Source: an uncultured Bacteroidales bacterium
GTDB lineage: Bacteria > Bacteroidota > Bacteroidia > Bacteroidales > WCHB1-69
Reading direction: 5' to 3'
Length of the DNA stretch: 64,000 bases
Assembly (NCBI GenBank): GCA_900315705.1
Contig: ONAB01000014.1
Coordinates: 1 to 64,000 of the forward strand
This document shows positions 17,133 to 51,341 of this stretch, one piece after another; position 1 is the first letter of the stretch, and every line of letters starts with the position of its first letter. Both the position numbers and the translations under genes were made by a program. The notes under the pieces are model-generated. The model had not been told where the DNA came from. It was given only the letters and a program-made list of their open reading frames with translations, and searched no databases.

Positions 17133-19133
17133 ATGATGACACTGCAAGAATTCCAAGAAGACCTCAAGAGAGGCATCCCCAGCACTTTGCCCGCCGCAAA
17201 GCCCTATGACCCTAACGTCAACCACGCGCCCAAGCGCAAAGACATACTGACCAAGAAGGAGAAGCAGCTCGCCCTGCGCAACGCCCTCCGCTATTTCGAC
17301 CCGTCGCTGCACGCCCAGCTGGCGCCCGAGTTCGCCAAGGAGCTGCACGACTACGGCCGCATCTATATGTACCGCTATCGTCCCGACTACGAGATGTACG
17401 CCCGTCCCATCGACGCCTACCCTGCCAAGTGCAAGCAGGCAGCTGCCATTATGCTGATGATCCAGAACAACCTGGACCCCGCCGTGGCACAACATCCCCA
17501 CGAGCTGATCACCTACGGCGGCAACGGCGCCGTGTTCCAGAACTGGGCCCAATACCGCCTCGTGATGAAATACCTCTCCGAGATGACCGACGAACAGACC
17601 CTCGTGATGTACTCCGGCCACCCGCTCGGCCTCTTCCCCTCCCATAAGGACGCGCCCCGCGTGGTCGTGACCAACGGTATGGTGATCCCCAACTACTCCA
17701 AACCCGACGACTGGGAGCGGATGAACGCCCTCGGTGTCAGCCAGTACGGCCAGATGACCGCCGGCTCCTATATGTACATCGGACCGCAAGGCATCGTGCA
17801 CGGCACCACCATCACCGTGCTCAACGCCAGCCGAAAAATCGGCGGCGAGATTGGCGGCAAGCTCTTCGTGACCGCCGGCCTCGGCGGTATGTCGGGTGCC
17901 CAGCCCAAAGCCGGCAACATCGCTGGCGTGGTCTCCATCACCGCTGAAATCAACCCCGCAGCCACCCAAAAGCGCTTCGACCAAGGCTGGGTGGATGAGG
18001 TACACGACAACCTCGACGAGCTGTTCGTGAAGGTGAACGAGGCCCGCGCCCAGAAAATCGCCAAATCGTTTGCCTACCAGGGCAACATCGTGGACCTCTG
18101 GGAATACTGCGCCGCCCACGACATCCAAGTCGATCTCGGCAGCGACCAGACCTCCCTGCACAACCCGTGGGCCGGCGGCTACTATCCCGTGGGCATCTCC
18201 TTCGAGGACGCCAAGGTGATGATGGCCGAACAGCCCGAGAAGTTCAAGGAGGCTGTGGAGGCCAGTCTGCGCCGCCAGGTGGCCGCCATCAACAAGCTGA
18301 CCGCCAAGGGTATGTACTTCTTCGACTATGGCAACGCCTTCCTGTTGCAATCCTCCCGCGCCGGCGCCGACATCCTCAAAGAGGACGGCACCTTCCGCTA
18401 CCCCTCCTATGTGCAGGACATTATGGGACCGATGTGTTTCGACTACGGCTTCGGCCCGTTCCGCTGGGTCTGCACCTCCGGCAAGCCCGAAGACCTTGAC
18501 GTCACCGACCATATCGCAATGGATGTGCTGAAAGAGATCAGCGAACACGCGCCCGCCGAGATTTCACAACAGATGAAGGACAACATCACCTGGATCAGAG
18601 GGGCCAAGGAGAACCACCTGGTGGTGGGTTCCCAAGCCCGTATCCTGTACGCCGACTGCGAGGGCCGCACCAAGATTGCCGCCGAGTTCAACAAGGCGGT
18701 GCGCGACGGCAGACTCTCCGCGCCGGTCGTACTGGGCCGCGACCACCACGATGTAAGCGGCACCGACTCCCCGTTCCGCGAGACCTCCAACATCTACGAC
18801 GGCAGCAGCTTCTGCGCCGATATGGCCGTGCAGAACGTCATCGGCGACGGCTTCCGCGGCGCCACGTGGGTGAGCATCCACAACGGCGGCGGCGTCGGCT
18901 GGGGCGAAGTCATCAACGGCGGCTTCGGTATGGTACTGGACGGCAGCGACGACAGCGACCGCAGACTCCGTTCAATGCTGTTCTGGGACGTGAACAACGG
19001 CATCAGCCGCCGCGCCTGGGCCCGCAACGACGGCGCCCTCTTCGCCATCAAACGCGCAATGGAACTCTGCCCCGAACTGCACGTCACCCTGCCGAATATG
19101 GCGGATGACAAGTTGGTGGAAGAAATGTTTTAA
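17133..19133 (+). CDS. hutU: Urocanate hydratase
   Basis: 666 aa, the long Bacteroidota-type urocanase. The ATG at 17133 lies 22 bp after the -7 box; a second Met follows directly. It converts urocanate to 4-imidazolone-5-propionate in histidine degradation, using tightly bound NAD+. Diagnostic stretches are I-T-Y-G-G-N-G-A-V-F-Q-N-W, Y-S-G-H-P-L-G-L-F-P, Q-M-T-A-G-S-Y-M-Y-I-G-P-Q-G-I-V-H-G and F-R-W-V-C-T-S-G-K-P-E-D-L, which contains the conserved active-site Cys region. None of the other hut genes (hutH, hutI, ftcD) is in this window, so the pathway is either dispersed or continues elsewhere. Cytoplasmic. Confidence 0.97.
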   Translation: MMTLQEFQEDLKRGIPSTLPAAKPYDPNVNHAPKRKDILTKKEKQLALRNALRYFDPSLHAQLAPEFAKELHDYGRIYMYRYRPDYEMYARPIDAYPAKCKQAAAIMLMIQNNLDPAVAQHPHELITYGGNGAVFQNWAQYRLVMKYLSEMTDEQTLVMYSGHPLGLFPSHKDAPRVVVTNGMVIPNYSKPDDWERMNALGVSQYGQMTAGSYMYIGPQGIVHGTTITVLNASRKIGGEIGGKLFVTAGLGGMSGAQPKAGNIAGVVSITAEINPAATQKRFDQGWVDEVHDNLDELFVKVNEARAQKIAKSFAYQGNIVDLWEYCAAHDIQVDLGSDQTSLHNPWAGGYYPVGISFEDAKVMMAEQPEKFKEAVEASLRRQVAAINKLTAKGMYFFDYGNAFLLQSSRAGADILKEDGTFRYPSYVQDIMGPMCFDYGFGPFRWVCTSGKPEDLDVTDHIAMDVLKEISEHAPAEISQQMKDNITWIRGAKENHLVVGSQARILYADCEGRTKIAAEFNKAVRDGRLSAPVVLGRDHHDVSGTDSPFRETSNIYDGSSFCADMAVQNVIGDGFRGATWVSIHNGGGVGWGEVINGGFGMVLDGSDDSDRRLRSMLFWDVNNGISRRAWARNDGALFAIKRAMELCPELHVTLPNMADDKLVEEMF

Positions 19134-19186
19134 TGGTGATTGGTGATTAGTAATTAGTGATCAGTGAACAGTGATTAGTAATAGGT
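19134..19186 (+). repeat. Degenerate repeat arm, left side of four-helix-bundle element 1
   Basis: Irregular tandem repetition of GTGATTAGT-like units (with AGTGAACAGTGA inside) starting one base after the hutU stop. It is matched in inverted orientation by the arm at 19580-19657. Confidence 0.75.
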
Positions 19187-19195
19187 TGTATCGAT

Positions 19196-19546
19196 ATGAA
19201 TCATAAGGATTTAGCGGTTTGGAAGGAGAGTATGAAACTGGTCAAAGAGGTGTATGGTTTGCTGAAAGATTTTCCGCCTTACGAACAATTTGGAATTTGT
19301 TCGCAAATGAGACGATCTGCAGTATCAATCCCATCAAATATCGCAGAAGGGGCAGGTAGAAACAATAATAAAGAACTATTACGATTTTGCCTCATATCCC
19401 AAGGTTCACTATCCGAATTAGAGACTCAATTGCTGATTTCTGCCGAACTGGATTACATTAGTTCCAATAACGACATATTCGATCAAATCACTACAGTCAG
19501 AAAAATATTATCAGGTTACATCAATTATTTAAAAACAAAACTATAA
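19196..19546 (+). CDS. Four-helix-bundle (23S rRNA IVS-type) protein, copy 1
   Basis: 116 aa. Typical of the S23/IVS four-helix-bundle family: D-L-x-V-W-K-E-S-M-K-L-V near the start, then L-L-K-D-F-P-P-Y-E-Q-F-G and Q-M-R-R-S-A-V-S-I-P-S-N-I-A-E-G (residues ~42-57), and L-S-E-L-E-T-Q-L-L-I-S near 85. Relatives are found in intervening sequences of 23S rRNA genes and, as Avd, with diversity-generating retroelements; no such retroelement is present. The gene is AT-rich between GC-rich neighbours and lies between inverted degenerate repeat arms. A second copy is at 44441-44809. Molecular role unknown. Confidence 0.9.
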   Translation: MNHKDLAVWKESMKLVKEVYGLLKDFPPYEQFGICSQMRRSAVSIPSNIAEGAGRNNNKELLRFCLISQGSLSELETQLLISAELDYISSNNDIFDQITTVRKILSGYINYLKTKL

Positions 19547-19579
19547 TAATAGCACCCTACGACACTCTCAACAACACCC

Positions 19580-19657
19580 CATTACCAATCACCATTCACT
19601 AATCAACATTCACTGTTCACTATTCACTGTTCACTATTCACTGTTCACTATTCACTA
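19580..19657 (+). repeat. Degenerate repeat arm, right side of four-helix-bundle element 1
   Basis: Repeated TTCACTATTCACTG units; the reverse complement shares AGTGAACAGTGA and GATTAGTGA with the left arm. It ends 2 bases before the start codon of the next gene, so that gene's promoter must lie within or beyond the element. Confidence 0.75.
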
Positions 19658-19659
19658 AA

Positions 19660-20547
19660 ATGCGATACTTCACCATACTACTCCTTATCACAATGACCTT
19701 CGCGTGCGGATGCCACAAGCAACCCGCACCGATTGTCATCAAGCCTGACATTGAGAAGAACCACCTGGAGCGCAACCACATCTTCGGGTTGGTGAAGGTG
19801 ATTGAGTCGCAGAGTTACCTTCTCAGGGACGATTCTCTCAGTCTGGCCGACACCAGTCGGCTGGCTGAGGTGCTCGCCTCCCGCACTCCCGACCTGACCT
19901 CCACGCAACGCTACACCGCCGACGGGTTCCTCACCCGTTACGTCAAGCACGACATCGCCACTGGCGACTCGGTGGTGCGGCGCTACACCTACAACAAAAA
20001 GGCCCAGATTGTGGAGTGGAAGGAGCGCACCTCCCGCGACACTGTGCGCACCATCGGCAAGTACCTCTACGACCGCAACGGCTTCATCACCGGCGAACAG
20101 GTGTTCCAGGGCGACAGCGTGGTGATGGCCTTCGCCCACACCACCGACGGCATCGGCAACATCATCCGCACCGCCCAGTCGTTCGGCGACTACACCACCC
20201 GCACCGAGACCAAGTACAACGAGAACGGGCTGGTGGCCAAGATCACCGAGTTCGAGCCTAACGGCAAGGTGTTCAAGACTGTCACCATCGAGTACGACAA
20301 CTACGGCGACGAAGTGAACCGCTGCGCCTACAAGTCTGGCAACCAGATGATTGAATACACCTACCACCTCTATTCCCAAGAGGGACGCCAACTCAAAACC
20401 ATCTACGAAGACAAAATCCACAAGGTGAAGGAATGCACCTACTATTTCGACTTCGACAACCAGAACAACTGGCAGATCGAGGTCAAGGCCATCGACAACA
20501 AAATATACAGCATCCGCAAACGCAATTTCATTTATTATCCACAATAA
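19660..20547 (+). CDS. Lipoprotein with YD-like repeats
   Basis: 295 aa with a lipoprotein signal (MRYFTILLLITMTFACGC; lipobox Cys 16 or 18). The mature protein has several Y-x-Y-D/N-x-x-G-x-I/V repeats (K-Y-L-Y-D-R-N-G-F-I, T-K-Y-N-E-N-G-L-V-A-K-I, T-I-E-Y-D-N-Y-G-D-E-V), a beta-strand pattern like RHS/YD or MORN-like antitoxin-type repeats in Bacteroidota lipoproteins. It is much too short for a true RHS shell. The start codon abuts a repeat arm. Function unknown; probably anchored in the periplasm or on the outer membrane. Confidence 0.75.
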   Translation: MRYFTILLLITMTFACGCHKQPAPIVIKPDIEKNHLERNHIFGLVKVIESQSYLLRDDSLSLADTSRLAEVLASRTPDLTSTQRYTADGFLTRYVKHDIATGDSVVRRYTYNKKAQIVEWKERTSRDTVRTIGKYLYDRNGFITGEQVFQGDSVVMAFAHTTDGIGNIIRTAQSFGDYTTRTETKYNENGLVAKITEFEPNGKVFKTVTIEYDNYGDEVNRCAYKSGNQMIEYTYHLYSQEGRQLKTIYEDKIHKVKECTYYFDFDNQNNWQIEVKAIDNKIYSIRKRNFIYYPQ

Positions 20548-22430: not shown

Positions 22431-22506
22431 TGCGATTTGCGATTTACGATTTGCGAGGTGCGATTTACGATCTAAAGTCTTAAGTCTAAAGTCTTCAGTC
22501 TAAAAA
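22431..22506 (+). repeat. Degenerate repeat array GCGATTTAC / AAGTCTAA family
   Basis: Two blocks: GCGATTTGCGATTTACGATTTGCG-like units, then TAAAGTCTTAAGTCTAAAGTC-like units. The same two blocks occur in reverse complement and reversed order at 30728-30779. No gene lies inside. Confidence 0.75.
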
Positions 22507-33364: not shown

Positions 33365-34480
33365 ATGTTTGAGGAAACCCGTCCCTATAACGACAGCGAG
33401 ATACCCGCTGCCATTGCCCGTGTGGCGTCCAATCCCTTTTTTGAGACGCTGGTCCGGTACTTGTTCCCCGGCACCTCCGTGGAGGCGTTCCGGCAGGAGT
33501 TTCTCCGCATCACCACCATCGACGAGTTTCAGGAAAAGGTGATGCTGAAAGCTCTGAGGAGCATCGTCCTCCGCACCTGCACCGACTTCACCTGGGAGGG
33601 CTTCAACCTGCTGGATGCCGACCACCGCTACACCTTCATCGCCAACCACCGCGACATCTTGTTGGATGCCGCGCTGTTGCAGGTCATCCTGAACAAGAAT
33701 CATCTCCGCACTTCGGAGATCACCTTCGGCAGCAACCTGATGAAGGGCGACCTTGTCATCGACATCGGCAAGATGAACAAGATGTTCCGCATCGAGCGCG
33801 GGGGCACGGTGCACAGCTTCTACCGGAGCTCGATGGAGGTCTCCTCCTATATGCGTTATGCCCTGTTGGAGAAGGGAGAGTCCACCTGGATAGCCCAGCG
33901 CAATGGGCGCACCAAGGACGGTCGCGACCTGACCGAGAGTGCCGTGCTCAAGATGTTCTCCATCAGCAGTCCCAAGCCCTTCGTGGAGAACCTGGCCGAG
34001 CTGAGCATCACGCCGGTGGCTATCTCCTACGAGTACGAGCCCTGCGACTTCCTGAAGACGCAGGAACTGTACATCTCGCAATACCAGCAGTACATCAAGG
34101 AGCCCGGCGAGGACCTGCACAGCATCTTGCAGGGGGTCACGCAGAAGAAAGGGCAGGTGCATCTGGCCGTCACCCCCACCATCACGGCGGAGGAGCTGGC
34201 CGAGTGCGACCGATACGAGAAGAAACTCAAGTTCGAGCAGCTGGCCAAGCTCATCGACCAGCGCATTTACCGTCATTTCAGGTTATGGAAGACGCATTAT
34301 ATGGCCCACGACCTGCTGTATCAGGACCAGCAGTACGCCGACCGCTACACCCCTGCCGACCTGGACGCCTTCGTCGCCTATATGGAGAGCGGCCTGAAGG
34401 GGCTCACCGGCGAGCGGGAAGAGTTGCGGAGCATCTTCCTGAAGATCTACGCCAACCCGGTGGAGGCGGTTGGTTGTTAG
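33365..34480 (+). CDS. PlsC-like acyltransferase with variant motif spacing
   Basis: 371 aa, no signal peptide. The catalytic stretch is A-N-H-R-D-I-L-L-D (Asn94-His95 to Asp101), giving H-x5-D rather than the usual H-x4-D; this N-H-R-D-I form is one I associate with a Bacteroidota acyltransferase subgroup. W-I-A-Q-R-N-G-R-T-K-D-G near 177 occupies the place of the FPEGTR block. The start ATG follows the ligase stop with no gap. The last codons (V-G-C-stop) lie inside the repeat array that begins at about 34471, so the natural C-terminus may have been altered. Probably acylates a lipid or glycolipid head group at the membrane. Confidence 0.78.
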   Translation: MFEETRPYNDSEIPAAIARVASNPFFETLVRYLFPGTSVEAFRQEFLRITTIDEFQEKVMLKALRSIVLRTCTDFTWEGFNLLDADHRYTFIANHRDILLDAALLQVILNKNHLRTSEITFGSNLMKGDLVIDIGKMNKMFRIERGGTVHSFYRSSMEVSSYMRYALLEKGESTWIAQRNGRTKDGRDLTESAVLKMFSISSPKPFVENLAELSITPVAISYEYEPCDFLKTQELYISQYQQYIKEPGEDLHSILQGVTQKKGQVHLAVTPTITAEELAECDRYEKKLKFEQLAKLIDQRIYRHFRLWKTHYMAHDLLYQDQQYADRYTPADLDAFVAYMESGLKGLTGEREELRSIFLKIYANPVEAVGC

Positions 34481-34578
34481 CTATTGGCTATTGGCTATTA
34501 GCTATTTGTTAGGGCTAAGGGCTAATAGCTAAATGCTAAATGCTAATGGCTAACGGCTAACAGCCAAAAGCTAACAGC
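34471..34578 (+). repeat. Empty palindromic repeat array (TTAGCTATTGGC family)
   Basis: The first part (34471-34513) repeats GCTATTGGCTATTAGC; the second part (34515-34578) repeats GCTAATAGCTAAATGC, i.e. the inverse. It looks like two arms of a four-helix-bundle element joined with no gene between, using the same sequence words as the arms at 44387 and 44911. Confidence 0.75.
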
Positions 34579-34603
34579 AAAAAAAACTTTCACTTTTTTT
34601 CCG

Positions 34604-42846: not shown

Positions 42847-44382
42847 ATGAAAAGAGCGATTATCAGTGTCAGCGACAAGACGGGCATCGTGCCGTTTGCG
42901 GCGGGGCTCGTGGAATTGGGTTACGAAATCATATCCACCGGGGGCACCAAGCGGGCCTTGGACGAAGCCGGGGTGAAGACCATCGGCATCAGCGAGGTGA
43001 CGGGGTTCCCGGAGATTATGGACGGCCGTGTGAAGACCCTGCATCCCAAGGTGCACGGGGGGCTGTTGGCCATCCGCGACAACGAGAAGCACCAGGCCGA
43101 GATGCGCGAGAACGGCATCGAGCCCATCGATATGGTGGTGGTGAACCTCTACCCCTTCAAGCAGACCATCGAGAAGGCGGGCGTCACATACGAAGACGCC
43201 ATCGAGAACATCGACATCGGAGGTCCGACGATGCTGAGGAGCGCCGCCAAGAACCACAAGTTCGTCACCGTGGTGGTGGACAGCGCCGACTACGACACTG
43301 TGCTGGCAGAGCTGAAGGCCCAGGGCGACACCACTTTCGAGACGCGTCGCCGGCTGGCCGCCAAGGTGTTCCGTCACACCGCCTCTTACGACACCTACAT
43401 CTCCACCTATCTCACCGAGCAGGCTGGCGAGCAGGAGCCCGAGAGCATATCGCTCACCTTCACCCGCAAGCAGAGTCTGCGCTACGGCGAAAACCCGCAC
43501 CAGGAGGCCACCTTCTATGCGGGCAAAAAACAGGGCTATTCCATTGCGTGGGCCGAGCAGTTGCACGGCAAAGAACTTTCATACAACAACATACAAGATG
43601 CTGACGCCACTTTGCAGATACTCCGCGAGTTCACGGAGCCGGCGATGGTGGCCGTGAAGCACAAGAACCCCTGCGGCGTAGGCCTGGGTGCCAATGCCCT
43701 GGAAGCCTGGCAGCGTGCCTACGAGGCCGACCCCGTCTCCATCTTCGGTGGCATCGTGGCCTCCAACCGCGAGATTGACCTCGCCACCGCCGAGGCGATG
43801 AAGCCTGTGTTCCTGGAGATCATCCTCGCCCCGAGTTTCACGCCCGAAGCCTTTGAACATCTGGCCACCAAGAAGAACATCCGCCTGATGACCTTCGATC
43901 CTTGCACTGAGGGGGGCGATGACAAGATGTTCATCAGCGTGCGCGGCGGTATGCTGCAGCAGACCATCGACAACAAATCGACGGAAGACTATGAGCTGAA
44001 CGTGGTGACGGATAAAAAGCCCACGGATGCCGAGATGAAGGACCTTTTCTTGGCAATGAAGATATGCAAGCACGTGCGTTCCAACGCCATCACGGTGGCC
44101 AAGGACGGGAAGATTGCCGGCATCGGCGCGGGACAGATGAACCGCGTGGGCGCCGCCCACATCGCCTTTGAGGAGGCCAAGGAAAAGGGCATCACCTCTG
44201 GGCTCTGCTTAGCCAGCGACGCCTTCTTCCCCTTCGACGACGTGGTGAAGATGGCCGCCCAATACGGCGTCACCGCCATCATCCAACCCGGTGGCTCGGT
44301 CCGCGACGAGGACTCCATCAAGGCCTGCAACGAGTTGGGCATCGCGATGGTGTTCACGGGAGTGAGACATTTTAAGCACTGA
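42847..44382 (+). CDS. purH: Bifunctional AICAR formyltransferase / IMP cyclohydrolase
   Basis: 511 aa. IMP cyclohydrolase (MGS-like) domain at residues 1-~190: A-I-I-S-V-S-D-K-T-G-I, I-S-T-G-G-T-K-R-A-L, R-V-K-T-L-H-P-K-V-H-G-G-L. The AICAR transformylase domain follows: R-Y-G-E-N-P-H-Q-E-A, V-K-H-K-N-P-C-G-V, I-F-G-G-I-V-A-S-N-R and S-D-A-F-F-P-F-D-D-V. Performs the last two steps of de novo purine synthesis. Its stop codon is followed 4 bases later by the repeat arm of four-helix-bundle element 2. Confidence 0.98.
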   Translation: MKRAIISVSDKTGIVPFAAGLVELGYEIISTGGTKRALDEAGVKTIGISEVTGFPEIMDGRVKTLHPKVHGGLLAIRDNEKHQAEMRENGIEPIDMVVVNLYPFKQTIEKAGVTYEDAIENIDIGGPTMLRSAAKNHKFVTVVVDSADYDTVLAELKAQGDTTFETRRRLAAKVFRHTASYDTYISTYLTEQAGEQEPESISLTFTRKQSLRYGENPHQEATFYAGKKQGYSIAWAEQLHGKELSYNNIQDADATLQILREFTEPAMVAVKHKNPCGVGLGANALEAWQRAYEADPVSIFGGIVASNREIDLATAEAMKPVFLEIILAPSFTPEAFEHLATKKNIRLMTFDPCTEGGDDKMFISVRGGMLQQTIDNKSTEDYELNVVTDKKPTDAEMKDLFLAMKICKHVRSNAITVAKDGKIAGIGAGQMNRVGAAHIAFEEAKEKGITSGLCLASDAFFPFDDVVKMAAQYGVTAIIQPGGSVRDEDSIKACNELGIAMVFTGVRHFKH

Positions 44383-44386
44383 TTTT

Positions 44387-44452
44387 GGCCATTAGCTATA
44401 AGCCTTTAGCCATTAGCAATTGGCTATTGGTGGTTGGGTATTAGTTGTTGGG
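44387..44452 (+). repeat. Degenerate repeat arm, left side of four-helix-bundle element 2
   Basis: TTAGCCATTAGC / TTGGCTATTGG words. The last 6 codons of the minus-strand four-helix-bundle gene (N-D-S-P-N-N) overlap the arm. The inverse arm is at 44911-44978 and shares TAGCCATTAGC in reverse complement. Confidence 0.75.
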
Positions 44453-44809
44453 AGAGTCATTACGCAGAATTGATATTAATCTGCTTAGTCTTTTTTCTAT
44501 ATACACTAGTTTATCAAGAATATTTGTCAGTTGGTCCTGACTTATGTAATTCAAATTACTCGCAATAATTAATTGTGTTTCTAATTCAAATGCCGAACCG
44601 ACACTAATTTGCAAAAAATGGGAAAAATCTTTTTTCGACTCTCTTGAAGCCCCTTCCGCTATATTAGACGCTATCGATACAGAAGACCTTCTTATTTGGT
44701 CCGACAATGCATAGCGCTCATACGTTGGGAAATCTCTTAATAGACTATAGATATCTGTCACTAAAGATATGGCATCATCCCATACTTGATACTTTCTAAA
44801 ATCCCTCAT
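44441..44809 (-). CDS. Four-helix-bundle (23S rRNA IVS-type) protein, copy 2
   Basis: 122 aa on the minus strand. Clearly related to the protein at 19196: Y-Q-V-W-D-D-A-I-S-L-V, L-L-R-D-F-P-T-Y-E-R-Y, Q-I-R-R-S-S-V-S-I-A-S-N-I-A-E-G, A-F-E-L-E-T-Q-L-I-I-A. AT-rich amid GC-rich genes, flanked by inverted degenerate arms with a different word family from copy 1, and oriented opposite to copy 1 relative to the chromosome. About 100 bp of AT-rich sequence (44810-44910) upstream could hold its promoter. Role unknown. Confidence 0.9.
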   Translation of the reverse strand: MRDFRKYQVWDDAISLVTDIYSLLRDFPTYERYALSDQIRRSSVSIASNIAEGASRESKKDFSHFLQISVGSAFELETQLIIASNLNYISQDQLTNILDKLVYIEKRLSRLISILRNDSPNN

Positions 44810-44910
44810 AAGAAAATAATATTTAATATATTTTTAACTAACGGAAAACAATCTACATTATTATCTGGCAGAAGCAAAAAACTTACACAAAAAAACGACC
44901 AACGCATAAA

Positions 44911-44978
44911 CATCTAATAGCAACCATCTAATGGCTAATGGCAAATAGCTAACAGCTAATGGCTAATGGCAACTAATA
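44911..44978 (+). repeat. Degenerate repeat arm, right side of four-helix-bundle element 2
   Basis: CTAATGGCTAATGGC / AATAGCTAACAGC words, inverse of the arm at 44387-44452. It runs up to the 5' end of ung and contains the ATG at 44966, which is therefore unlikely to be the true ung start. Confidence 0.75.
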
Positions 44979-44989
44979 CCCCCCTAACA

Positions 44990-45661
44990 ATGATTAACCC
45001 TCAAATTGAAGATTCCTGGAAACGTGTCCTGTGGGACCAGTTCCAGGCCCCGTATTTCGCCCAGTTGAAAGCTTTTCTTGTGGAAGAGAAGCGGCAGTAT
45101 CAGGTGTTTCCGCCGGGGCCGTGCATCTTCAACGCCTTCAACAGCACGCCGTTTGACGAGGTGAAGGTGGTGATCATCGGGCAGGACCCCTACCACGACG
45201 TGGGGCAGGCCCACGGACTCTGTTTTTCGGTGCAGGACGGGGTGCCTTTTCCCCGCTCGCTGCAGAACATCTTCAAGGAGTTGCACGATGATGTGGGGTT
45301 CCAGATGCCCCGCAGCGGCAATCTCCAGAAATGGGCGGCTCAGGGCATCCTGTTGCTGAACGCCACGCTGACCGTGCGCGCCCACTGTGCCGGCTCGCAC
45401 CAGGGCCACGGCTGGGAGACCTTCACCGACTGCGCCATCCAACGGCTCTCCGAGCGCCGCGAGGGCATCGTGTTCCTCCTTTGGGGCAACTTCGCCATCA
45501 ACAAACGCGCCCTCATCGACACGAGCAAGCACTATGTACTCACCGCCGCCCACCCCTCGCCCCTTTCCGCCTCCCGGGGCTTCTTCGGCTGCCGACACTT
45601 CTCCAAGACCAACGAACTGCTCACCCGTATGGGCAAAACTCCCATTGACTGGCAACTCTGA
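44990..45661 (+). CDS. ung: Uracil-DNA glycosylase
   Basis: 223 aa from the ATG at 44990 (M-I-N-P-Q-I-E-D-S-W-K); an earlier in-frame ATG at 44966 is inside the repeat arm and adds eight residues unlike the family. Family A UDG: I-I-G-Q-D-P-Y-H-D with catalytic Asp66, L-L-L-N-A-T-L-T-V-R, and A-A-H-P-S-P-L-S-A with the DNA-intercalating loop and catalytic His. Removes uracil from DNA for base-excision repair. Confidence 0.97.
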   Translation: MINPQIEDSWKRVLWDQFQAPYFAQLKAFLVEEKRQYQVFPPGPCIFNAFNSTPFDEVKVVIIGQDPYHDVGQAHGLCFSVQDGVPFPRSLQNIFKELHDDVGFQMPRSGNLQKWAAQGILLLNATLTVRAHCAGSHQGHGWETFTDCAIQRLSERREGIVFLLWGNFAINKRALIDTSKHYVLTAAHPSPLSASRGFFGCRHFSKTNELLTRMGKTPIDWQL

Positions 45662-45860: not shown

Positions 45861-48800
45861 ATGCTGAAAGAAGAGCAAAAAAGAGTCCGGATACCTTTGC
45901 TGGCGCTCCTTTGGGGCGTGATGCTGCTATGGGCGGCCGGGCCCTGTTTTGCCACAACGACGGTCATCGACACGCTGCTCTGCCAAGGGGCTGTCTTCCA
46001 GCACAACGGCCACCATTATAGCGAGCCTGGCGTCTATTACGACACGTTGGTGGCGGCAGACGGTCAGGTGCACATCGACACTCTCCGGCTGCACGCCCCC
46101 GTCGTCACGGGCGCCACCTTCCTGTGTTTTGATGCCGAAGACTCGCTGTTCGCACCCCTCGTGGCCGACTATTACCACTGGAACACGGGCGACACCACCC
46201 GGGGCATCCGGATCTCAGAGCCCGGCTATTACAGCGTGCGGCTGGCAGACGGAGAGGGCTGCTTTGCCGCCACGCGCGTCACGCAATCATACGACCCCAT
46301 ACGGTCCATCCATCTTCCCGCAATGTGCGCCGGATTCCCGCAGCCCATCACCATCGGGTACGGTGACGGATACAACGTCTCGCTCGGCCGCACCGACGCC
46401 CACATCAGTCGCGCCGACACCATCTTCCTGCCCGACGGCATCGACTGCGGAAACGGATGTTCCTACATCTCATCGGTAACTTTCAGCGGATTCCCCGAAT
46501 ATGACACCATAACCTCGGTTAATGACATCCTCTACGTCAAGCTCTCCATCGAGCACGAGTGGATTGGCGACCTGTGGATACAGCTCACTTGCCCCAATGG
46601 GCAACACACCTCCATCCTGAAAAAATATCCCAATTCCAACGGACAAACCAGTTCGTGCAGCGACTCCATCCCCGCCTCGGAATGGCATTCATACGCAAAC
46701 TACAACTACAAGTTCGGTGTCCCCAACTTCATCAACCACGATCCGATATGTGACGCAAGCGTAAACACCATCGGCGTCTGTCGCGACTACTGCTGGTCGG
46801 AGGCCGACAATCAAGGTTATGTCTATTCCTCTGGCAGTTACGTCTATGCCACCAGCAACCGCACCACCGAAATCAACAATTCCTTAAACAACGGGCACGG
46901 CTGGCAGCAGACCCTGTTCTGCAAACCGACCAATATGGCCAATATGAGCAACGTGTTCCGTCCCGACGGCTCGTTCAGCGACTTGATTGGCTGTCCGGTG
47001 AACGGCGAATGGAAAATCGAGGTGATGGACGGGTGGAGTCAGCACAACGGATATCTTTGCGGGTGGGAACTCGCTTTGGCTGATGGGATGATTTACGATG
47101 GCACGGTCGTGAATGCTTCCAGCACCAGCACCGGAATGCTTCAGATTGACAGCACCACGTTCATCGTCATCCCGCCGGACACCATCCACAGCGACACCAC
47201 CATCACCTACCCGCTCACGTTGATTGACGACAACGGATGCCAATACGACACCCTCTTCCATATCCTCATCCACCCTCTGGCGCAATCCTCCCAATCTTCG
47301 GAAATCTGCCAGGGCGACACCCTGCGTTATCTGGGAGCCTCCTTGACCACTGCCGGCAACTATCCTTTCTACTTCCCCGGCTCCAACGGCTGCGACTCCG
47401 TCGCCTACCTGCGGCTGATGGTCAACCCGTCACCGCGAACCGAGATTTGGGACACGGTCTGCGACATAACCGTCTGGAACGGTATCACCTACAACAGTTC
47501 AGGCAACTACACCCAGTTTTTCCAGACCGCCCACGGTTGCGACAGCATCGTCACCCTGCACCTTATCGTCAACCATTCCATCCACACGGAATGGCAAGAT
47601 ACCGTTTGCGACAGTTTGCGATGGAACGACTCGCTCTACATCACTTCCGGCACCTACACCCAGCATTTACAGACCACACACGGCTGCGACAGCACCGTCA
47701 CGCTCAACCTCACGGTTAACCACTCCGCCCATACGGAATGGAGCCAGACCGTTTGCGACAGCTTGCGATGGAACGATCTGTTGTACACCACCTCCGGCGA
47801 CCACACCCAGCATCTGTTCACCACGCACGGCTGCGACAGCACCGTAGTGTTGCACCTCACCGTCAATCGATCAGTCGCCACGGGATGGCACGACACCGTA
47901 TGCGACAGTCTGCGATGGAACGACTCGCTCTACACCTCCTCAGGTCTATACACCCAGCATCTGCAGACCATCCACGGCTGCGACAGCACAGTAACACTGC
48001 TGCTCACGGTCAACCCTTCTGCGCACACGGAATGGAGCCAGACCGTTTGCGACAGCTTGCGATGGAACGATGTGTTGTACACCACTTCCGGTGACCATAT
48101 CCAACGTCTCCGCACCGCTCACGACTGCGACAGCATTGTCACGCTGCACCTTACTGTAAACCGATCCGCACACACGGAGTGGAGCCGGACCGTGTGCGAC
48201 AGCTTGCGGTGGAACGACTCGCTTTACACCACTTCCGGCGACCACATCCAGCATTTCCAGACCTCTCTCGGCTGCGACAGTACGGTGACCTTGCACCTCA
48301 CCGTCAACCGCTCCGCCCAGACCGAGTGGAGCCACACCGCGTGCGACAGCCTGCGATGGAATGGCGTGCTGTACACCACCAGTGGCGACCACACCCAGCA
48401 TTTGCTGACCGAGCACGGCTGCGACAGCACCGTCACACTGCATCTCACAGTGAACCACTCCGCCTCCAGCGAGTGGAGCCAGACTGTGTGCGACAGTCTG
48501 CGGTGGAACGGTGTTTTGTACACCACATCGGGAAATCATATCCAACACCTGCAGACCGCCACCAACTGCGACAGTATGGTGACCCTGCACCTCACCGTCC
48601 ATCATTCTGCCCACACGGAGTGGAGCCAGACTATTTGCGACAGTTTACGGTGGAATGACGTGTTATACACCACCAGCGGAGACCACACCCAGCATTTCCA
48701 GACCGCACACGGCTGCGACAGTGCGGTGACACTGCATCTTACCGTCCATCATTCGGTGGCACAGGAACGCTCGGCCACGGCGTGCGACAGTCTGCGGTGG

Positions 48801-51341
48801 AACAACTCGTCGTACACCATCTCCGGCCGCTACGTTCAGCATTTCCAAACCATTCACGGCTGCGACAGCACCGTCACACTGCGCCTCACGGTCCATTATT
48901 CAGCGGACTCAACGATTGCGGCCACCGTCTGTGACAGTTTGCGATGGAACGACTCGCTCTACACCACCTCCGGCATCTACACCCAGCATTTCCGGACCAT
49001 TCACGGCTGCGACAGCACTGTCACGCTGCATCTCACTGTCCACCAATCGGTGGCTCAGGAGCGTTCGGCCACCGTCTGCGATAGCTTGCGATGGTACGAC
49101 TCTTTGTACACCGTTACCGGAGACTACACCCACCATTTACAGACCGTCAATGGCTGCGACAGCGCCATCACGCTGCATCTCACTGTTAACCAATCGGTGG
49201 TTCAAGAGCGTTCGGCCACGGTCTGCGACAGTTTGCGGTGGAACGACTCCCTGTACACCACTTCCGGCAGCTACACCCAGCATTTCCAGACCGCACACGG
49301 CTGCGACAGCACCGTGACGATAGACCTCACCGTCCATCACTCAGCAAGTACGGCCCTTACCTCCACTGTTTGCGACAGTTTGCGGTGGAATGATTCGTTA
49401 TACACCCTTTCCGGCATCTACACCCAGCATTTACAGACCGCACACGGCTGTGACAGCACCGTCACACTGGCGCTCACGGTGCTGACAAGTCCGAGAAGCA
49501 CACTGTACGATACAATTGTGGAGAATGCGTTACCATACGACACGTTGGGGTTGCATTTCACCGCTTCGGGCGTGCAGTCGGCGACCATCCCGGCAGTCAA
49601 TGGATGCGACAGTATCGTCACGGTGATATTGGAAGTGTTGCCCAACACATACTTGTCGTACGACACGGCGGTCTGTGCAGCGGCGTTGCCTTTGAGCTGG
49701 CGCGGGCATCTCTTCACAGCGGCCGGCGAATGGCGCGACACGCTGCTCAATCCCAACGGCACCAGCTGTTATGTGAGCGCTACGCTGAGCCAATACCCAC
49801 AGCCCGTCTTGTCCATCACGGGGCGGACGCATCCCGGCTGCTTCGGCACCACCACAGGCTCGCTCACCGCCACGGTCACGGGAGGCACCCCACCCTACAG
49901 TTTCCAGTGGCAGGAGGCGAATCAAACGACACCTCTGAATACGGCGACCTCCACGGCCAGCAATCTCCCTGCCGGTGCCTATTGGGCACAAGTCACTGAC
50001 GCACACCAATGCAGCGCCGCCGACAGCGCCTCACTGCACTATCTTTACGGCGAGATGACACCCGGGCAAATCTCGGCCGACCAAGAGGTTTGTGAAGGCA
50101 ATCTCGCAGCACCCCTGTTAGGGTCGGCAGCAAGCGGCGGACAAAACTCATATTACCAATGGCAATACTCCACCAACGGGAGCACATTCGTTCCTGTACC
50201 CGGCACCAACAACACCCAAAATCTTGCCCTTGACACCGTCACACACTGGCGGATGTACCGACGCGCCTGGATCAGCGCCCTCTGCGGCACGCAATACAGC
50301 AACGCGATCACTGTGCAGTCGCTGCCTACACCGCGCGACACCATCCACGCCACCGTCTGCCAAGACCACGCCTTCGACTCGCTGGCCTTTCACGTCAACG
50401 CTTTCGAGACGCATCTGCCCGGCACCATAGAGCGCATCAACCGGGCACAGACCATCTACCAGTGCGACTCCATCGTCACCCTTTTGCTGACCGTTCTGCC
50501 CTCCGCACACGACACCCTGCACGACGAAGTGTGCCAGGACAATCCCTACGAGGCAAACGGGTTCCAGATACCTTCAGACAGCACCTCAACGCCCGGCACC
50601 CGCATTTACCAACGGCAACTTGTACAAACCGACTGCGGCTGCGACAGCATCGTGACGCTGATTCTCACCGTCAATCCAACTTATCTGATTGAGATACAGG
50701 ACCACATTTGCGAAGGTGACGGGTACAGCCAACACGGCTTCAGGTTTCTCCCCGGGGAAACCATCGGGACCGACCACCTGCAACGGCGACAGGAGTTGCA
50801 CACACAGCTTGGTTGCGACAGCATCATAACCCTGGACCTGGATATCACCGACACTGCCTTGACCATTGACACCTATCCGTACGATTTCTGCGAAGAGTAC
50901 GAGTTGACGCTGACGGCGAGTTCGCCATTGGGCAACTATCTCTGGAACAATGGCGAGAGCAGCGCCTCGATGGAGGTCCACTCGCCGGGATACTACAGTG
51001 TCACGGCCTCCGACGGCGACTGTTCCGCCACGGCCGGCATCTCCATACAGCCCTGCGATATGACGCTATTCCTCCCCAACGCCATCTCGCCCAGCAACCA
51101 CGACGGACTGAACGATGATTTCCATCTCGAAGCGGGCTATCAAAGGCAAATCACCGACTTTTCCATTCGCATCTTCGACCGTTGGGGAAATCTCGTATTC
51201 GCATCCAACGACAAGAATTTCCGTTGGCAAGGAGAACAAAACGGAACGATCATCCCGAACACAACCTACAATTATGTCATCAAATACAGAGACCTCTACG
51301 GTGAGGAATTTACCGCAAAGGGTACTATAATTGTTTTATAA
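45861..51341 (+). CDS. Giant T9SS type B surface protein with P-domain and 14 tandem 49-aa repeats
   Basis: 1,826 aa. The signal peptide ends near residue 31 (A-G-P-C-F-A). Residues ~190-415 contain a proprotein-convertase P-domain-like region (I-S-S-V-T-F-S-G-F-P, L-S-I-E-H-E-W-I-G-D-L-W-I-Q-L, C-P-V-N-G-E-W-K-I-E-V-M-D). From about residue 525 to 1,215 (DNA about 47,437-49,490) a 147-bp unit recurs 14 times at exact spacing; the consensus contains T-V-C-D-S-L-R-W-N-D-S-L-Y and H-G-C-D-S-T-V-T-L-H-L-T-V, two Cys per repeat. Further diverged copies lie on both sides. The C-terminus is a gliding-associated T9SS type B domain (L-F-L-P-N-A-I-S-P-S-N-H-D-G-L-N-D ... I-F-D-R-W-G-N-L-V-F). Likely a secreted or surface-bound adhesin; repeat number may vary between strains. 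Confidence 0.92.
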   Translation: MLKEEQKRVRIPLLALLWGVMLLWAAGPCFATTTVIDTLLCQGAVFQHNGHHYSEPGVYYDTLVAADGQVHIDTLRLHAPVVTGATFLCFDAEDSLFAPLVADYYHWNTGDTTRGIRISEPGYYSVRLADGEGCFAATRVTQSYDPIRSIHLPAMCAGFPQPITIGYGDGYNVSLGRTDAHISRADTIFLPDGIDCGNGCSYISSVTFSGFPEYDTITSVNDILYVKLSIEHEWIGDLWIQLTCPNGQHTSILKKYPNSNGQTSSCSDSIPASEWHSYANYNYKFGVPNFINHDPICDASVNTIGVCRDYCWSEADNQGYVYSSGSYVYATSNRTTEINNSLNNGHGWQQTLFCKPTNMANMSNVFRPDGSFSDLIGCPVNGEWKIEVMDGWSQHNGYLCGWELALADGMIYDGTVVNASSTSTGMLQIDSTTFIVIPPDTIHSDTTITYPLTLIDDNGCQYDTLFHILIHPLAQSSQSSEICQGDTLRYLGASLTTAGNYPFYFPGSNGCDSVAYLRLMVNPSPRTEIWDTVCDITVWNGITYNSSGNYTQFFQTAHGCDSIVTLHLIVNHSIHTEWQDTVCDSLRWNDSLYITSGTYTQHLQTTHGCDSTVTLNLTVNHSAHTEWSQTVCDSLRWNDLLYTTSGDHTQHLFTTHGCDSTVVLHLTVNRSVATGWHDTVCDSLRWNDSLYTSSGLYTQHLQTIHGCDSTVTLLLTVNPSAHTEWSQTVCDSLRWNDVLYTTSGDHIQRLRTAHDCDSIVTLHLTVNRSAHTEWSRTVCDSLRWNDSLYTTSGDHIQHFQTSLGCDSTVTLHLTVNRSAQTEWSHTACDSLRWNGVLYTTSGDHTQHLLTEHGCDSTVTLHLTVNHSASSEWSQTVCDSLRWNGVLYTTSGNHIQHLQTATNCDSMVTLHLTVHHSAHTEWSQTICDSLRWNDVLYTTSGDHTQHFQTAHGCDSAVTLHLTVHHSVAQERSATACDSLRWNNSSYTISGRYVQHFQTIHGCDSTVTLRLTVHYSADSTIAATVCDSLRWNDSLYTTSGIYTQHFRTIHGCDSTVTLHLTVHQSVAQERSATVCDSLRWYDSLYTVTGDYTHHLQTVNGCDSAITLHLTVNQSVVQERSATVCDSLRWNDSLYTTSGSYTQHFQTAHGCDSTVTIDLTVHHSASTALTSTVCDSLRWNDSLYTLSGIYTQHLQTAHGCDSTVTLALTVLTSPRSTLYDTIVENALPYDTLGLHFTASGVQSATIPAVNGCDSIVTVILEVLPNTYLSYDTAVCAAALPLSWRGHLFTAAGEWRDTLLNPNGTSCYVSATLSQYPQPVLSITGRTHPGCFGTTTGSLTATVTGGTPPYSFQWQEANQTTPLNTATSTASNLPAGAYWAQVTDAHQCSAADSASLHYLYGEMTPGQISADQEVCEGNLAAPLLGSAASGGQNSYYQWQYSTNGSTFVPVPGTNNTQNLALDTVTHWRMYRRAWISALCGTQYSNAITVQSLPTPRDTIHATVCQDHAFDSLAFHVNAFETHLPGTIERINRAQTIYQCDSIVTLLLTVLPSAHDTLHDEVCQDNPYEANGFQIPSDSTSTPGTRIYQRQLVQTDCGCDSIVTLILTVNPTYLIEIQDHICEGDGYSQHGFRFLPGETIGTDHLQRRQELHTQLGCDSIITLDLDITDTALTIDTYPYDFCEEYELTLTASSPLGNYLWNNGESSASMEVHSPGYYSVTASDGDCSATAGISIQPCDMTLFLPNAISPSNHDGLNDDFHLEAGYQRQITDFSIRIFDRWGNLVFASNDKNFRWQGEQNGTIIPNTTYNYVIKYRDLYGEEFTAKGTIIVL
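47437..49490 (+). repeat. 147-bp tandem repeat array inside the surface protein gene
   Basis: Fourteen in-frame units. The codons for V-C-D recur at 47457, 47604, 47751, 47898, 48045, 48192, 48339, 48486, 48633, 48780, 48927, 49074, 49221 and 49368, exactly 147 bases apart. Units are similar at the DNA level but not identical, so the array is fairly old. Confidence 0.9.

Follow-up and report, generated by a model that had tools for sequence, protein, structure and literature searches.

Why does a small AT-rich gene lie between the urocanate hydratase gene (hutU) and the next gene of an uncultured Bacteroidales bacterium, enclosed by short repeats that mirror each other? The window analysed here is the whole stretch of 64,000 nt from contig ONAB01000014.1, and the locus in question, element 1 (window positions 19134-19659), had been read in an earlier note as a small mobile or self-spreading unit. 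Element 1 consists of an IVP (four-helix-bundle protein) gene between inverted arrays of ~7-nt words, and it fills the gap between the hutU stop codon (19131-19133) and the ATG at 19660, as the note had described (Table 1). The consensus units are GTGATTA on the left and TCACTAT on the right with a period of 7, so the unit lengths of 9 and 14 given in the note are replaced by one of 7 nt. The arms are indeed reverse-complement arrays, with stretches such as 26 nt matching at 88% and 40 nt matching at 80%. A search of the window for ATTCACTRTTCACT, allowing up to two mismatches, gave 10 matches where 0.46 would be expected, and 9 of these fall inside the arms of element 1. Among the 40 window genes tested (at least 100 aa), only the two IVP genes have an inverted flank score of at least 16.

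The gene is as AT-rich for its GC-rich surroundings as the note had claimed (GC 0.356, compared with 0.617 for hutU and 0.546 for the window) and its 116-aa product is of the IVS type, matching PF05635 ("23S rRNA-intervening sequence protein", 1.1e-35) and TIGR02436 (2.5e-35). The only solved relative found is XCC0516 (2gsc). Similarity to the diversity-generating retroelement (DGR) protein Avd is weak, with a match to PHROG 3206 at 1.6e-7 and to the Pfam family bAvd at 21.7 bits, under the cut-off of 40. The element encodes no transposase, nuclease or reverse transcriptase. An Rfam scan of the window found one tRNA, no rRNA and no other known RNA family, and PADLOC matched no defence system.

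Table 1. Coordinates of the elements, their host genes and the gene-less arrays in the window.
Feature	Position	Strand	Description
hutU (urocanate hydratase), left host gene	17142..19133	+	
Element 1, upstream arm	19134..19195	+	GTGATTA/GTGAACA word, period 7; array 19136-19186, directly 3' of hutU stop codon
Element 1, IVP / four-helix-bundle protein gene	19196..19546	+	116 aa; PF05635, TIGR02436; weak similarity to DGR protein Avd
Element 1, downstream arm	19547..19659	+	Inverted array TTCACTA/TTCACTG, period 7; array 19589-19657, 2 nt short of next ATG
295-aa ORF, right host gene	19660..20547	+	No Pfam/NCBIfam match; lipoprotein-like start by eye
Gene-less heptamer arrays beside tRNA gene	22431..22504		TGCGATT, then TCTAAAG
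Gene-less composite heptamer arrays	30713..30778		
Gene-less inverted heptamer palindrome	34468..34583		GCTATTG ... GCTAAAAGCTAACA
Element 2, arm at 3' end of its gene	44388..44452	-	GCCATTA word 44388-44421; further array 44420-44452 overlaps gene end
Element 2, IVP gene	44441..44809	-	122 aa; between purH (42847-44382) and ung (44966-45661)
Element 2, arm upstream of its gene	44909..44972	-	Inverted copy of GCCATTA word

A second element of the same build (element 2, 44388-44972) lies between purH and ung and uses a different word, GCCATTA; at this site the IVP gene is oriented the opposite way in two species (L023, L036). The genome to which the window belongs has seven PF05635 matches, the four strongest of which have inverted arrays, each with its own word. 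The three divergent genes (L005, L006 and L007) have no arms by eye, and L005 and L006 also failed the numerical arm test, L007 being judged by eye only, suggesting that the arms go with the main IVP subfamily. The words of the three gene-less arrays in Table 1 occur in IVP arms of the genus. The window also holds a 147-bp tandem repeat of 13.5 copies (47490-49469) within an 1826-aa ORF (45861-51341).

A comparison of the flanks of homologues, proposed in the earlier note, found that most of them carry arms. Upstream flanks were aligned locally with the reverse complement of downstream flanks, and the scores were compared with those of the direct orientation and of 100 dinucleotide shuffles. 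Significant inverted flanks were present in 158/224 distinct IVP genes, with the same count on repeat, in a pool limited to IVP genes of at least 60 bits, from which four with short flanks had been dropped. Size-matched control genes passed in 7/460 cases (6/460 on repeat), one control match being an IVP gene that the control set had failed to exclude. The passing genes made up 81/95 of the genus sample, 15/30 of the phylum sample, 54/87 of the named loci and 8/12 of the loci from further phyla; the 66/224 that failed include 15 of the 30 in the phylum sample. Earlier rounds had given 56/89 and then 20/30, the latter mostly repeating those loci, with 12 new genes of which 8 pass. Outside the pool of 224, 2/12 loci from the Luteimonas family and 2/5 cyanobacterial plasmid loci pass, a low rate for these 17 later loci that is partly explained by arms overlapping the predicted gene, as is plain by eye in at least one Luteimonas-family locus.

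The PF05635 family was present in all 41 genomes searched in the genus and in 235/296 Bacteroidota genomes of at least 90% completeness. The named and further loci include records from Clostridia, Geobacter, Thiobacillus, Anaerolineae, Thermoflexia, Gemmataceae, Pyrinomonadaceae, Gracilibacteria, Cloacimonadota, Acetothermia and Gastranaerophilales, a breadth which places the element build in about ten phyla, mostly by one or a few genes per phylum and often from metagenome assemblies. On a Pseudanabaena galeata plasmid (L460) an IVP gene with long heptamer arrays lies between cas6 and cas4, and on a Nostoc edaphicum plasmid (L457) an IVP gene with GGGAGTA arms lies antisense between ribonucleotide reductase subunit genes. 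Two IVP genes occur within about 1-2 kb at L060, L082, L027/L091 and L132.

The best array periods are 7 or 14, followed by 8 or 16 and then 6; where both arms have a clear period, its class is the same in 104/118 elements (7,7: 86; 8,8: 14; 6,6: 4). The array starts a median of 0.5 nt after the upstream stop codon (n=110) and ends a median of 7 nt before the next ATG (n=106). The IVP protein is under purifying selection (median dN/dS of 0.079 in 58 pairs). The gene and its two arms almost certainly form one unit.

The words vary between sites, yet each is common to both arms of one element. Arrays were found in both flanks of 152/218 elements, and in these the mean 6-mer overlap of an arm was 0.41 with its own inverted partner, 0.10 with the partner read directly and 0.02 with other elements. 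In pairs of species with an element at the same site, overlap between an element's own arms was 0.42, 0.41, 0.33 and 0.39 at protein identities of 90% and above, 70-90%, 55-70% and under 55%, while overlap with the ortholog's corresponding arm fell from 0.68 to 0.36, 0.09 and 0.05 over these classes. Own overlap exceeded ortholog overlap in 43/47 pairs below 70% identity, 22/34 at 70-90% and 2/27 above 90%. At orthologous sites, as these overlaps show, the word changes while both arms stay matched.

Same-site copies form mostly one clade on the protein tree, 11/15 site groups needing one change and the rest two or three. The word is therefore usually replaced on both arms of a resident element, not by a new insertion, and, same-site copies being mostly inherited, movement appears to be rare. 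Independent insertion at the serC/serA junction (three changes) was considered but is not required by the tree; taken as a whole, the 16 site groups need 15 changes, the smallest number possible, and this junction may therefore be ancestral. The sample holds one genome per species, so that no strain-level event was seen.

Some closely related elements do lie at unrelated sites with their words in common. L004 and L081 share 87% protein identity and a word overlap of 0.57, and L029 and L067 share 87% and 0.75, and neither pair has any flank similarity. The elements at the hutU site and the s5 site form one clade, with a word overlap of 0.44 between L002 and L030; other related pairs from different sites share little of their word (L016/L002 and L053/L028, both 0.10). 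Between different sites, words grow more alike as protein identity rises; site identity was assigned by blastp of flanking ORFs, and some "different-site" pairs are actually one site (flanks were similar in 9/17 pairs checked, and by eye L092/L090 also seems to be a single site). The pairs with a word in common at unrelated sites suggest that the unit probably moves as a whole.

The hutU junction itself is not fixed, a point on which the note's reading had depended. Thirty of the 38 listed places in congeners were cut out and classed by eye: 5 have the gene, 1 has an internal-deletion form, 8 have inverted heptamer arrays without a gene, 6 have a different palindrome, 9 are free of repeats and 1 is unclear. 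The internal-deletion form (G006) keeps both arms and the start of the gene and lacks most of the rest. By its hutU sequence, the IVP-bearing G001 is closest to G016 (90% over 600 nt), whose junction is empty. Gain, loss and internal deletion can be read from these junctions. A comparison of occupied and empty hutU junctions revealed no unambiguous target-site duplication. Unrelated palindromes occupy the junction in other species, one type (GTAGGGGCG...CGCCCCTAC) in L223, L226, L228 and L232 and a second (GTAGAGACG...CGTCTCTAC) in L248 and L249, marking it as a hot spot for intergenic repeats.

Arrays without a gene occur frequently in this genus (30 lag-7 arrays in 400 kb). In a set of 32 gene-less arrays of the genus, 81% of the 7-mers are also present in its IVP arms, while reversed or complemented controls reach 31%; only 4/32 have an inverted partner no more than 200 nt away. 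In random stretches, lag-7 or lag-14 arrays scoring at least 13 were found in 0/28 IVP-lacking genomes (660 kb, with 5 of the 28 contributing under 6 kb each), 6/29 IVP-bearing genomes of other genera (762 kb) and 6/8 genomes of this genus (400 kb). Fisher tests, uncorrected for ancestry, gave 0.024 for 0/28 against 6/29 and 0.0007 for 0/28 against 12/37. At a score of 11 the arrays appeared in 2 IVP-lacking genomes, 8 IVP-bearing genomes of other genera and 6 of this genus.

For a single word the association is weaker. An array of the TCAC word occurred in 39/235 of the 296 Bacteroidota genomes with IVP genes and 4/61 of those without (Fisher 0.064), where IVP-lacking status was partly inferred from absence among the listed matches; its presence in four genomes without a PF05635 match makes the link weak for this word. 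The pattern used as a control, the TCAC word read backwards, also describes a heptamer array and matched in several genomes, so that it gives no clean comparison. One genome (G144) has no PF05635 match and 19 TCAC heptamer array matches; either the gene was recently lost there or arrays exist without it. In a genome of another family (G332), all 20 TCAC-word sites fetched are gene-less, and 17/20 are more palindromic than their 20 shuffles, the word types recurring in mirrored order; of its four IVP genes, one carries this word, which is scattered through the genome, on one side only, with no downstream arm. A link between IVP genes and the arrays is likely, and gene-less arrays made from the same words are present in IVP-carrying genomes.

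How are the arms kept matched? They could be maintained as RNA, pairing in the transcript so that an RNase III cut frees the IVP message from its operon, as in the 23S IVS, with selection on the RNA stem preserving complementarity. Such a system has a precedent in the Coxiella 23S IVS, where an S23p/IVP gene occurs with heptamers and complementary ends and is cut by RNase III (PMC4990558). Both window elements fold as RNA better than shuffles (z of -2.75 and -2.27), and both neighbours lie on the IVP strand in 140/195 elements. Against this, the other 55/195 are not so arranged, 24 elements being antisense to both neighbours, and a stem kept as RNA should tolerate G:U over A:C. Arm mismatches in 143 elements were 205 of the GU type and 258 of the AC type (122 and 139 in the 83 co-directional elements), with no G:U excess and A:C if anything in excess (p 0.016). 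The arm match therefore looks DNA-level rather than that of an RNase III stem; selection for an RNA stem is not supported by this mismatch test, and it leaves the gene-less arrays unexplained. We prefer a DNA-level process and consider the RNA reading, although its main rival, to be unlikely.

The arrays might also be a genome feature in their own right, made by slippage in the host, into which IVP genes merely insert or in which they survive. Their abundance without a gene in this genus, mostly without an inverted partner (28/32), and the arrays of G144 would fit such an origin. That no array was found at the same threshold in 660 kb of the 28 IVP-lacking genomes, that a word can travel with the gene and grows more similar between sites as protein identity rises, and that the deleted form in G006 keeps both arms all speak against it, and we hold it to be distinctly improbable. 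Still less probable is a resident, non-mobile unit whose arms bind the IVP ring, its five subunits lying on successive 7-nt words and controlling the IVP gene or its neighbours. Arms on both sides of the gene, a reported homopentamer for XCC0516 (PMC4990558), purifying selection on the gene and the single clade formed by most same-site copies are compatible with this autoregulation. The words are nevertheless fully different between same-site orthologs whose proteins are 55-70% identical, an overlap of 0.09 being at odds with a fixed binding specificity, and gene-less arrays abound elsewhere.

On balance, the observations as a whole are best explained if element 1 is a single representative of a widespread type of small, mobile-like DNA unit. 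The unit would sit in the gap that separates a stop codon from the start of the following gene. It would comprise two arms with the gene for an IVP protein of ~116 aa between them, the first arm made of tandem copies of a copy-specific ~7-nt word and the second of that word in inverted orientation. The match between its arms would be upheld by DNA-level copying of one arm from the other, with template switching or conversion through an arm hairpin or cruciform as the likeliest route. We lean towards such concerted copying, and the same process would add or remove whole units and replace the word on both sides. By homology, the IVP protein is predicted to assemble five four-helix bundles into a ring and to be related to Avd, the accessory protein of DGRs, and it may bind the hairpin or its strands and so let host polymerases or another enzyme copy them; this action on the hairpin is proposed tentatively. 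Gene-less palindromes would be derivatives from which the gene has been lost. The note's small mobile unit is thus supported overall by the genome comparisons, and that it is self-spreading we infer.

A broader possibility, put forward with considerable doubt, is that IVP proteins are a new class of nuclease-free mobility factor that build, homogenise and spread inverted ~7-nt arrays with a separate word for each copy, and that the heptamer excess of bacteria (the G-rich repeats of Xanthomonas and Nostoc, perhaps TAACTGA) results largely from their activity, much as RAYTs give rise to REP sequences. If so, tens of thousands of unexplained small PF05635 genes would gain a role, and a class of heptamer repeats known without a cause would gain one. 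What defines the ends of the unit is a period together with a copy-specific word that changes on both sides at once; to our knowledge no described transposable element has ends of this kind, and they open the mechanism of concerted change at inverted repeats to direct tests.

Several known systems share parts of this build. REP/BIME sequences with their RAYTs, and MITEs, combine a gene-bearing unit with dispersed gene-less palindromes that have the same ends. Dispersed gene-less palindromes sharing ends occur here too (window 34468-34583; G332), although most genus arrays are unpaired. The element has no RAYT (TnpA_REP) transposase, PF05635 and a sub-threshold bAvd being its only Pfam matches, and its ends, unlike those of REPs and MITEs, share a period rather than a sequence and change in concert. 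Nor do they form the conserved terminal inverted repeat of a MITE, since arms match their partner (0.41) and not other copies (0.02). Diversity-generating retroelements resemble the element through distant Avd homology, but no reverse transcriptase lies beside the gene, whose neighbours are hutU and the lipoprotein-like ORF.

The 23S IVS shares with the element the S23p/IVP protein family and complementary ends able to form a stem. In Coxiella, the IVS has tandem GACAGAT heptamers (two or three by strain) upstream of the gene, and RNase III cuts at the first heptamer repeat (PMC4990558). In contrast, the element lies outside rRNA, in a protein-gene operon (hutU and the 295-aa ORF), has arrays of a copy-specific word on both sides and gene-less copies elsewhere, and carries no sign of selection for RNA pairing. 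The TAACTGA direct repeats of Beggiatoaceae, Cyanobacteria and Bacteroidetes, for which horizontal transfer was considered by the author, resemble it as intergenic heptamer arrays of patchy spread, but neither inverted pairing nor an IVP gene was noted for them, the terms "s23" and "four-helix" being absent from that paper (PMC4679880). Doublets of TAACTGA, GACAGAT and GGGAATC were not found in the 218 elements scanned.

Heptamer repeats have been noticed in bacteria since at least 2007, and the GGGNATC-type heptamers of Xanthomonas and Nostoc were described as G-quadruplex repeats that are intergenic and mostly between co-oriented genes (PMC4692102). X. campestris has 186 GGGAATC-type repeats, 70 of them as inverted pairs (PMC4692102), and like the window arrays they are intergenic tandem 7-mers, often in close inverted pairs. 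The terms "helix bundle" and "intervening" are absent from that report (PMC4692102), which hence names no gene partner. In the family around Luteimonas, the IVP protein of L447 matches the solved XCC0516 over 124 residues (7.4e-52), and its gene lies between accB and accC with GGGAATC-type units on both flanks, a junction common by eye to 8/12 loci fetched in that family. Judged by sequence, the published Xanthomonas GGGAATC repeats flank an ortholog of the crystallised XCC0516. The earlier note knew of no described element of this structure; the Coxiella heptamers (PMC4990558) and the paired GGGAATC repeats of Xanthomonas (PMC4692102) were already in print, and the statement stands in so far as neither had been tied to IVP-gene arms. 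A literature search whose coverage ended short of subscription journals and preprints found no paper in which heptamer arrays are connected with IVP genes outside rRNA. The element is real and general, and on the features tested it is of a kind distinct from every system compared here, fitting no known one.
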